From NCBI RefSeq assembly GCF_000025625.1, contig NC_013922.1, forward strand, positions 930,001-994,000: a stretch of 64,000 bases of DNA, given 5' to 3'. Under the pieces are notes generated by a model. It made no database searches. It was given only the letters and a program-made list of their open reading frames with translations, and was not told the origin of the DNA. Made by a program: the position numbers and the translations under genes. This document shows, piece after piece, positions 33,705 to 36,671 of the stretch. The stretch is from Natrialba magadii ATCC 43099. Lineage in GTDB: Archaea > Halobacteriota > Halobacteria > Halobacteriales > Natrialbaceae. Numbering within the stretch: position 1 is the stretch's first letter; each line of letters begins with the position of its first letter.

Positions 33705-36671
33705 CTACGTACTCGAGTCGGTTGTGTCTGCGGCCTGCTCCGCAGCCTCGTTCTCGGTGTCGTCCTCAGCGCCGTCTTCGGCGTTGTCTGCAGGTTCTGT
33801 GTCGTCGGGTTCGCCGTCATCGTCGCTACCGTTGTCATCGTCGCTACCGTTGTCACCGTCGCTACCGTTGTCGCCGTCGTCACCGTCATCGTCGCTCCCA
33901 CTCTCATCACCCCCATCACTCTCTTCGTCACCTTCGAGTCCGGACTCGAGTGCACTCGGTTCCGACTCGTTCTCGCCAGCGGGGAGTGCGTGAGGGGCGT
34001 CGTCATCGTCGCTCTCTGCGCGTTCTCCGCCCGCATGGCTCTCCCGACCCTCCTCGAGTGCATCCGATTCGCCAGCATCCGCTGGCAGTGGTTCGGGGCC
34101 GTCTGGGTCGACGTACTCGAGTTCGGTGCCGGGCTGGTTGTCGTCGCTGTCGTCGCTGTCGGTGTCGGTGCTGGTGCTGGTGCTGGTGTCGGTCCGCTCG
34201 TCAGTCCCACCCGTCTCACCGTCACCGAGGTCAACAGCGGCTCCGTCGACATCGGTCGTGAACGCGGCGAGTGACTCCTGGAGCGTCACCGACTGCTCGG
34301 AGAGGTCGTCCGCGTTCTCGCTCACAGTCGAAATTGCAGCCGTTTGCTGCTCGACGGCGGCAGCGACGTCGCTCGCCTCGCTCGCCGTCTCGGTGCTGAT
34401 TTCGGTCACGTCGTCGACCATCGTGACCAGATCCTGCGTCGACGTGGCGATGCCGTCGGTTGCGTCGCTGATCTCCTGGACGCCGTGGTCGGCTTCGGTC
34501 ACCTCGGCTTCGATTTCGTGGAACGTCGTCGCGGACTGCTCGACCGTTTCGGTGCCCGCAACGACGTGTTCGCGCATCGTCTCCATCTCGTCGACCGTCT
34601 CGTCGGTCTGGGACTGGACGGTGTCGATGAGCTGGTCGATCTCTGCGGCGGACTCTTTGGTCTCTTCTGCGAGCTGTTTGACCTCGCTGGCGACGACAGC
34701 GAAGCCGTTTCCGGCACGGCTACTGCCACCGTCGCTCGCGCTCGCGCTCGCGTTGCTGGCGTGTGCCGCCTCGATAGAGGCGTTCAACGCCAGAATATTC
34801 GTCTGGTCGGCGATATCCGTGATGACGTCGATAATCTCGTCGATTTCGGCCATCGACTCGTCGAGGTCGCGAATCGACTCGAGTGTCGCCTCGGTTCGCT
34901 CCTCGATCGCTTCCATCTCGCTGACGAGGTCGCCGGCCGACTCGCGGCCGTCGTTGGCGCGCTCGGCCGCGTGCTGTGACGTTTCCGCGAGGGTGTCGGC
35001 GGTCGCTGCAATCTCCTCGATATTCGCGGAGATTCCCTGCACCTCGCCGGAGATGGTCTCCATGCGCTCGTGTTGCTGGTCCGCGTAGCCCGTAATCTGC
35101 TGGACGGACTCGCTGACCGTCTCGCTCGTGGACTCGAGTTCGGTCGCGCGAGCCTGGACGTCGTCGGTCGCCTCGGAGACATCGCCGGCGAACGTCGAGA
35201 CGGTGTCAACGGTGTGTTCGAGGTCGTCCAGCATCTCGTTGAACGTGGCGGCGATGTCGGCCATCGGCTCGCTCTCGGTGTCCGGATCGAGGCGCTGGGT
35301 CAGGTCGCCGTCAGCGCAGGTTTGCATGACGGCGCAGTATTCGGTCGCGGTCTGTTCGAGCTGCTCGTTCATCTCCTGGGCGTCCTGGCGGGCGCGTTCT
35401 GCGCGCTCTTTTGCCACTTCGGCCTCTTCGCGAGCCTCGTCGGCCTGTTCTCTGGCCTGTTCTGACTCCTCGCGGGCCTGCTCGGCCTGCGTTCGGGCCT
35501 GTTCGGACTCTTCAATCTGGTCGACCAGCGAGATACGCATGTCGTCGATCGAGCCGTAGAGGCCGCCGATTTCGTCGATACGATCGGATTCGACGGCGGT
35601 ATCGTACTCGCCGTTTTCGATCGCTGCTGCCCGGCCAGAGAGATCGCTGAGCGAGCGGGCCGTGTTTCGACCAAGGACGGTGCCAAACACGCCGATGACG
35701 GCGACGCCGACGAACGTGATCAGTAGTCCGAACTGGGTCGCAGTGTTGGCGAAACCGAGCGCGTTCGCTTCCGTCGTATGCACGAGGACGGTCCAGTCGT
35801 CGCTCGTCGTGTAGTAACCGGCAACGTAGCCGTCCGGATCGAAGTTGTACGGCTCGCTCTGGAGTGTTTCGCTCGGTGCTCCATCGACGCGAAGCGAGCC
35901 GCGGTTCTCGAGTTGGGCTGCCTCGAGGACGCCGTTTCGATCCTCGTAGGAGTCGAGGAACGACAGGGTTTCGTCGTCGCCGTCGTTGCCCAGATAGGCG
36001 TCGTCGCTGACGATCTGTCCGTCTTCGTTCAGGATCGTCACGACAGTTCCCGAGTCCGCAGCCGAGACCATCTCGGTCGAGCGCTCGGAGAGATCGAACG
36101 TGAACACGAGTGCCCCATCACCGCCGTCGACGCCGACGTAGTAGGACACGACTGGGTCTGCGTCCGTGGACAGTCCCAGCTGGTCCGGCATCAGGTACGG
36201 CTCCGTCTGCTGCACCAGATTCGTCGAGATGTCCTCATCGAGGTCTGCAGTGGCAGGGAACTCGAGTGCATCCAGATCGTCGGCGTCGGAGCCGATGCCC
36301 GTGATGATATCGCCAGATTCCGTGTCGACGTAGAGCGCGTTCATGCGCTCTTCGGGCATGTCGTAGTAAATCTCCTGGAGATAGTCGTCGACCTGTTCTG
36401 GATCGCCGCTATCGGTGACTGGGGCATCTGCCGTCGCAGCGACGAGGTTGTGATTCTGGGCGAGCCAGTTTTCCATGGCAATGCCTTCCTGGTAGGCTGC
36501 GTCCTGGCGCTCCTCGAGGGCGGTTTCTTCGACGTTCTCGGTGAGCAGCGTCGTCGAAACGAGCCCAAGCCCCCCGATCGTGAGCCCGAGGACGAGGAAG
36601 ACAACACCGAACTTCAATGCGTAACTTCGTCTGATGAACGACGGGATGAGACGCCGTCCCTTCCACACCAT
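33705..36671 (-). CDS. halobacterial transducer (methyl-accepting chemotaxis protein)
   Basis: 988 residues. TM1 at about 21-43, a large extracellular Cache-like sensor domain (about 45-305), TM2 at about 310-335, a HAMP segment, a long Glu/Ala/Arg coiled coil (about 385-435) and a signalling domain (about 470-775). The tip hairpin retains 'NILALNASIEAA' and 'GFAVVASEVKQLAEET', but about 12 extra Ala/Ser/Gly-rich residues lie between them (about 638-657). The C-terminal 200 residues are extremely acidic and repetitive (Asp/Glu/Ser/Gly). It would control CheA and the archaellum motor. The ligand is unknown and no che genes lie nearby. Confidence 0.92.
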   Translation of the reverse strand: MVWKGRRLIPSFIRRSYALKFGVVFLVLGLTIGGLGLVSTTLLTENVEETALEERQDAAYQEGIAMENWLAQNHNLVAATADAPVTDSGDPEQVDDYLQEIYYDMPEERMNALYVDTESGDIITGIGSDADDLDALEFPATADLDEDISTNLVQQTEPYLMPDQLGLSTDADPVVSYYVGVDGGDGALVFTFDLSERSTEMVSAADSGTVVTILNEDGQIVSDDAYLGNDGDDETLSFLDSYEDRNGVLEAAQLENRGSLRVDGAPSETLQSEPYNFDPDGYVAGYYTTSDDWTVLVHTTEANALGFANTATQFGLLITFVGVAVIGVFGTVLGRNTARSLSDLSGRAAAIENGEYDTAVESDRIDEIGGLYGSIDDMRISLVDQIEESEQARTQAEQAREESEQAREQADEAREEAEVAKERAERARQDAQEMNEQLEQTATEYCAVMQTCADGDLTQRLDPDTESEPMADIAATFNEMLDDLEHTVDTVSTFAGDVSEATDDVQARATELESTSETVSESVQQITGYADQQHERMETISGEVQGISANIEEIAATADTLAETSQHAAERANDGRESAGDLVSEMEAIEERTEATLESIRDLDESMAEIDEIIDVITDIADQTNILALNASIEAAHASNASASASDGGSSRAGNGFAVVASEVKQLAEETKESAAEIDQLIDTVQSQTDETVDEMETMREHVVAGTETVEQSATTFHEIEAEVTEADHGVQEISDATDGIATSTQDLVTMVDDVTEISTETASEASDVAAAVEQQTAAISTVSENADDLSEQSVTLQESLAAFTTDVDGAAVDLGDGETGGTDERTDTSTSTSTDTDSDDSDDNQPGTELEYVDPDGPEPLPADAGESDALEEGRESHAGGERAESDDDDAPHALPAGENESEPSALESGLEGDEESDGGDESGSDDDGDDGDNGSDGDNGSDDDNGSDDDGEPDDTEPADNAEDGAEDDTENEAAEQAADTTDSST
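34731..34757. repeat. GCTCGC hexamer repeat in the transducer tip
   Basis: At least four GCTCGC units, in frame, encode the Ala-Ser run within the tip insertion. Confidence 0.85.

Follow-up and report, generated by a model that had tools for sequence, protein, structure and literature searches.

An extended, fast-changing hairpin turn in a chemotaxis transducer of Natrialba magadii

A methyl-accepting transducer of Natrialba magadii joins the two helices of its signalling hairpin by a turn of 19 residues, where the usual length is 7. Receptor tips are treated as among the most conserved protein interfaces. Judged by comparison of related sequences, the extended turn appears to be genuine and to evolve quickly within a single receptor lineage, rather than to be a defect. 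We consider it probable that it represents an old loop at the hairpin apex, with its length only loosely constrained, in an otherwise ordinary, probably functional haloarchaeal transducer. The single-gene result is modest, since the transducer belongs to a lineage in which long loops are the rule; the best-supported wider reading is that its turn is part of a more general haloarchaeal tendency.

Transducer gene and domain organization

The transducer gene (33705–36671, minus strand) was identified from its open reading frame and Pfam matches and encodes a methyl-accepting protein of 988 residues. It is probably Nmag_0937, as judged from the order among the transducers named in the genome paper (PMC3403918). 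The signalling domain (MCPsignal, PF00015; residues 563–758; 34398–34985, minus strand) scores 124 bits against a curated cut-off of 34.6 and is preceded by a HAMP domain (residues 333–383; 35523–35675, minus strand) with 45.8 bits against a cut-off of 25. Transmembrane segments were recognized by eye in the sequence only. Both conserved tip arms of methyl-accepting chemotaxis proteins, NxLALNAxIEAA and GFAVVAxEV, are present. The four neighbours inspected are not che genes and comprise a glycerol kinase, a protein without an NCBIfam match, an SDR-type oxidoreductase and a HAD phosphatase that is closest to phosphoglycolate phosphatases; neither the SDR nor the HAD protein reaches the curated cut-off of its best model.

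The C-terminal tail (residues 810–988; 33708–34244, minus strand) is acidic, of low complexity and gap-rich in the ortholog alignment. It differs greatly in length among orthologs and contains an 18-bp array at 33816–33879 and a period-6 run at 34167–34188. At the other end of the protein, the sensory half (residues 1–402; 35466–36671) is 73% identical to a stretch of the same genome (L023, G000:C1:1279403-1280608) whose adjoining signalling domains carry another tip (EASRSASGEDEEG). This likeness suggests an exchange of sensory and signalling modules.

Structure of the hairpin tip

The turn between NASIEAA and GFAVV reads HASNASASASDGGSSRAGN and spans residues 637–655 (34707–34763, minus strand), as defined by translation and alignments. 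It thus has 19 residues in place of the canonical seven between EAA and GF, an excess of 12. The ortholog alignment delimits an N-side arm (residues 596–636; 34764–34886, minus strand) that ends in NILALNASIEAA and a C-side arm (residues 656–696; 34584–34706, minus strand) that begins with GFAVVASEVKQLAEET. An earlier note had described an insertion of about 12 residues at 34702–34763 in the tip of this transducer; the insertion is real and unusually long, its span was right to within two codons, and the estimate agrees both with the excess over seven and with a 12-column gap in the alignment to the Thermotoga maritima receptor structure 2ch7.

The 12 extra residues sit at the turn that joins the two helices, between the equivalents of Tsr Arg388 and Arg394, which we take to be His637 and Asn655 from a mapping onto the Tsr tip sequence. 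Of the Glu–Arg pair that forms the trimer lock in Tsr (E385–R388'), the transducer keeps the glutamate (Glu634) and has His637 in place of the arginine. Of 132 ordinary haloarchaeal tips, 20 likewise have histidine here, and only one has arginine at the Arg394 position.

An AlphaFold2 model of residues 492–807, built with three sequences of 94–97% identity, is weak, with a mean pLDDT of 80.8 and a pTM of 0.48 (other four models, pLDDT 59–70). Two long helices (model residues 88–152 and 160–315) meet at the turn, and model residues 154–159 have pLDDT values below 50. With caution, the apex of the turn may be predicted to be disordered. A fold search with the model returned chemoreceptors at large r.m.s.d. 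followed by unrelated helical proteins and is uninformative on the turn.

The long loops are strikingly polar: none of the 331 residues in 27 distinct long loops is hydrophobic, whereas elsewhere in the domain the share is 25.2%. This count leaves out 17 loops that had been sorted by a polarity rule; with them it becomes 2 of 563. Hydrophobic residues are almost as scarce in seven-residue turns (2 of 560), so the extensions resemble additional material of the same turn. The lack of hydrophobic residues may reflect a G+C-rich codon bias or descent from the ancestral turn.

Conservation among orthologs

An ortholog is present in all seven Natrialba genomes compared, N. magadii included. In a family search, 10 of 125 genomes match the signalling region at 1e-40 or better, namely the seven Natrialba genomes and one each in three other genera. 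The six congeneric orthologs (L015–L020) have turns of 17, 21, 17, 14, 14 and 16 residues, all in frame, and those of the other genera (L037, L038 and L039) have loops of 10, 13 and 12 residues. Nine orthologs from nine other genomes have a long turn (10–21 residues), which therefore predates the genus. Its length has repeatedly changed; within the genus it ranges from 14 to 21 residues, with no fixed motif apart from the loop ends. One of the congeneric genes (L019, G001:C30:451850-454573) contains a TGA within the matched stretch; the tip lies within its open frame of 913 residues, and its tail may be truncated.

From HAMP through the signalling domain, the seven Natrialba orthologs have insertions or deletions at the turn alone; the two arms have none and keep most of their sequence. 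When all ten orthologs are compared from HAMP to residue 808, two sites vary in length: the turn and residues 402–408 (35448–35468) in the coil after HAMP, where a seven-residue difference separates Natrialba from the three other genera. Two further groups of gaps stem solely from the paralog L042, which was aligned and left out of the count. Among the Natrialba orthologs the nonsynonymous difference per pair-site is 0.330 in the loop, 0.056 in the N-side arm and 0.082 in the C-side arm, so that loop residues change four to six times faster than those of the arms; gaps amount to 0.175 in the loop versus 0 in the arms, and the synonymous difference is 0.142 in the loop versus 0.250 and 0.207 in the arms. 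These figures are raw pairwise shares, not dN/dS, and the alignment within the loop is unsure. The indel and codon counts exclude L042 together with L040 and L041, which are identical to L015 and L017, and a bacterial sequence (L043) was excluded from all counts.

The pattern bears directly on whether the gene is damaged, that is, whether a slippage accident has uncoupled the receptor from CheA and left the gene heading to non-function. Such a history could be suspected since the lock arginine is a histidine and since turn length looks fixed in the bacterial class compared (19 places matched a scan for turns of 8–17 residues in 190 genomes, none of them genuine). However, long turns are common to nine orthologs, the arms are strongly constrained with the reading frame intact, and the same histidine occurs in the ordinary tips counted above. 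We rejected a damaged gene on the strong constraint of the flanking arms and regard this history as highly improbable. The suggestion that the insertion could impair coupling to CheA is likewise not supported, as the seven Natrialba orthologs keep a long, variable turn between strongly constrained arms.

The hexamer array

A period-6 array (CGCTCG, 3.3 copies) was located by repeat search at 34733–34752, without strand assignment, and encodes (Ala-Ser)n on the minus strand. It is a perfect run of 20 bp and covers part of the turn only. The array is one of six period-6 runs that reach 20 bp in the window, the whole 64 kb stretch of DNA that was analysed, and as such looks ordinary. The earlier note had named a GCTCGC hexamer repeat as the cause of the insertion. 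The array exists as described, and as a cause it fails, since sister genes are long-looped without it. In the top-scoring ortholog (L015) the loop, of 17 residues, is shorter by one Ala-Ser unit and has synonymous changes within the stretch, and L016 reaches 21 residues by a different insertion. The loops of L017 (17 residues), L018 (14), L019 (14) and L020 (16) are without the GCGAGC array, and a search for an array of the GCTCGC type in L016–L020 (loops of 14–21 residues) found none. An origin of the extension in the repeat is thereby ruled out; the repeat accounts for two residues at most. We infer that the extension is older than the array.

Short perfect G+C-rich repeats are error-prone, and on this general ground the extra residues might be an artefact of sequencing or assembly of the repeat. 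We attach almost no weight to this explanation: sister genomes that were sequenced separately are also long-looped, with L015 and L016 sharing the SNASAS start, and Sanger and 454 data underlie the finished N. magadii genome, for which an error below 1 in 100,000 is stated (PMC3403918). The same paper mentions simple sequence repeats that encode peptide repeats in general terms.

Turn length among haloarchaea

Of the 13 transducers found in the N. magadii genome, seven have a seven-residue turn, four have 9 or 10 residues and one has 19. The tip of the thirteenth (L013, G000:C1:1571271-1571795) is long and aberrant, reading ESA-RATGDSGAGAGTGNSSE-TMGIIASEV; its C-side arm is altered, and its turn has about 17 residues by eye. 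In a wider census of 155 tips, the 13 of N. magadii and 142 others, an equally long segment is far from the rule, a possibility that had been raised against the insertion: 132 tips have exactly seven residues. The other 23 exceed this length, with nine turns of 9 residues, three of 10, seven of 12, two of 13, the N. magadii turn of 19 and that of L013 at about 17. The census covers 155 of the 191 PF00015 matches in ten chosen haloarchaeal genomes; the 36 weakest matches were left out and may contain further odd tips. The share of long turns may be too high because five of the genomes (G138, G166, G213, G246 and G254) were picked after their long-loop matches were known. A regular expression missed 11 tips, which were read by alignment instead.

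Pattern scans of the class, which detect only tips spelled EAA...FAVVA, returned genuine turns of 19–28 residues in two of 391 haloarchaeal genomes, N. magadii and its congener G004 (sorted by eye from matches in 36), and 23 tips with turns of 13–18 residues, out of 54 places matched, in 19 of 382 genomes. One earlier scan matched 172 of 391 genomes, a figure that is unsorted and includes chance matches. In these scans the longest turn outside Natrialba has 17 residues (G374). This loop and those of G328 and G130 (15 residues) and G255 (13–14) carry an extension rich in Gly, Ala, Asp, Ser and Asn at the same turn, starting with RA. The 17 long tips outside Natrialba have 13–17 residues, are mostly richer in glycine than the N. 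magadii turn and were not all placed on the signalling-domain tree. Separately, the scan pattern also picked up a protein segment EAAxRHIxDDRRDxARQAxRRxFAVV that is common to seven genomes (G267, G209, G156, G322, G266, G241 and G307) and is not a receptor tip.

A FastTree phylogeny was built from 163 signalling domains with the turns removed and with L013 missing. The state `longer than 7' needs 13 changes on this tree (shuffled mean 28.7), of which eight are forced by starred branches; the changes may be gains or losses. The N. magadii transducer groups with its orthologs, with full support, in 11 rows that are all long; of these, L038 and L282 are the same gene. The first loop residue is Arg or His in 22 of 22 long tips versus 89 of 132 ordinary ones (Fisher p = 0.00055, relatedness ignored), which hints at selection at the loop base, but an independent-pairs test that allows for relatedness gives a median p of 1. 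No description of variation in haloarchaeal tip length was found in titles and the starts of abstracts among the top-ranked papers, a body of literature in which subscription papers are mostly absent.

Bacterial receptors

The bacterial comparison was made with the class of G415, a genome holding a Methylorubrum locus, and covers one class, one tip spelling and turns of 7 and 8–17 residues. The pattern with a seven-residue turn matches in 86 of 181 genomes of this class, often many times in each (26 in G415), and the pattern with turns of 8–17 residues matches at 19 places in 14 of 190 genomes. Three-frame translation of these 19 places in the 190 genomes revealed no genuine extended tip for turns of 8–17 residues. 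Three of the places are tips caught through an upstream out-of-frame start, two of them with a seven-residue turn and one with a frame break. Haloarchaea repeatedly change the length of the tip turn, whereas the scanned bacterial class shows no such change.

Functional implications

If the old apical loop is under relaxed length constraint, tolerance of its length could follow from geometry. The turn would project from the receptor trimer beyond the CheW/CheA ring, and because of this placement a polar bulge would be tolerated, the extra residues entering the solvent with the helix register unshifted. In G+C-rich sequence the loop would gain and lose length through replication slippage and small duplications that keep the frame, and selection would remove changes that break the frame or add hydrophobic residues. 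Kinase control would be expected to persist, and contacts near CheA P3/P4 or CheW would change mildly at most.

Tuning of CheA/CheW coupling by the turn is possible; the earlier note had also suggested tuning, of CheA coupling. In its adaptive form, loop length and charge would set the strength of coupling to CheA (P3/P4) or the CheW paralog used, and an adjustable loop would weight receptors in the array. The loop is bounded by positions for which models and simulations give contacts: the E385–R388' trimer lock brackets the turn (PMC8144572) and R394 contacts CheW E18 (PMC6954272) and CheA P4 E361 (PMC6746300). Transducer groups of Halobacterium salinarum differ in copurification of CheA, CheW1 and CheW2 (PMC3579733), and the N. 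magadii paper lists two CheW proteins (PMC3403918). The 8–13 or more changes of the long state on the tree and the invariable Arg or His at the first position of the long tips also fit such tuning. Against it stand the span of 14–21 residues inside one genus with only the loop ends fixed, the want of clear support for the Arg/His link in the test that allows for relatedness and the near absence of arginine at the R394 position from ordinary haloarchaeal tips anyway. We consider adaptive tuning unlikely, although it is a better candidate than damage or artefact.

A broader proposal is that the haloarchaeal chemoreceptor apex is a hypervariable module, in which lineages independently grow disordered polar turns below the CheA/CheW ring. 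We hold this to be a speculative idea, marginally less likely even than adaptive tuning. If true, such turns would set receptor weight or the choice of CheW paralog, in contrast to a frozen apex length in bacteria. With the natural variants as a series of insertions, the part of the tip that really touches CheA and CheW could be probed, and an ungapped tip model may misalign haloarchaeal receptors.

Comparison with known receptors

The signalling domain of the transducer corresponds to the two-helix hairpin of known receptors, including T. maritima 2ch7 (also 3ja6) and E. coli Tsr (1qu7), the latter a significant match. In the alignment with 2ch7 the tip arms are gapless beside the turn and the whole 12-column difference falls at the turn itself, which is RAGEAGR, seven residues, in 2ch7 and 19 in the transducer; a seven-residue gap lies farther up each arm, outside the tip. 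The haloarchaeal transducer HtrII of Natronomonas pharaonis has a tip that was modelled on Tsr, with an E355–R358' lock and stacking of F366 (PMC8144572).
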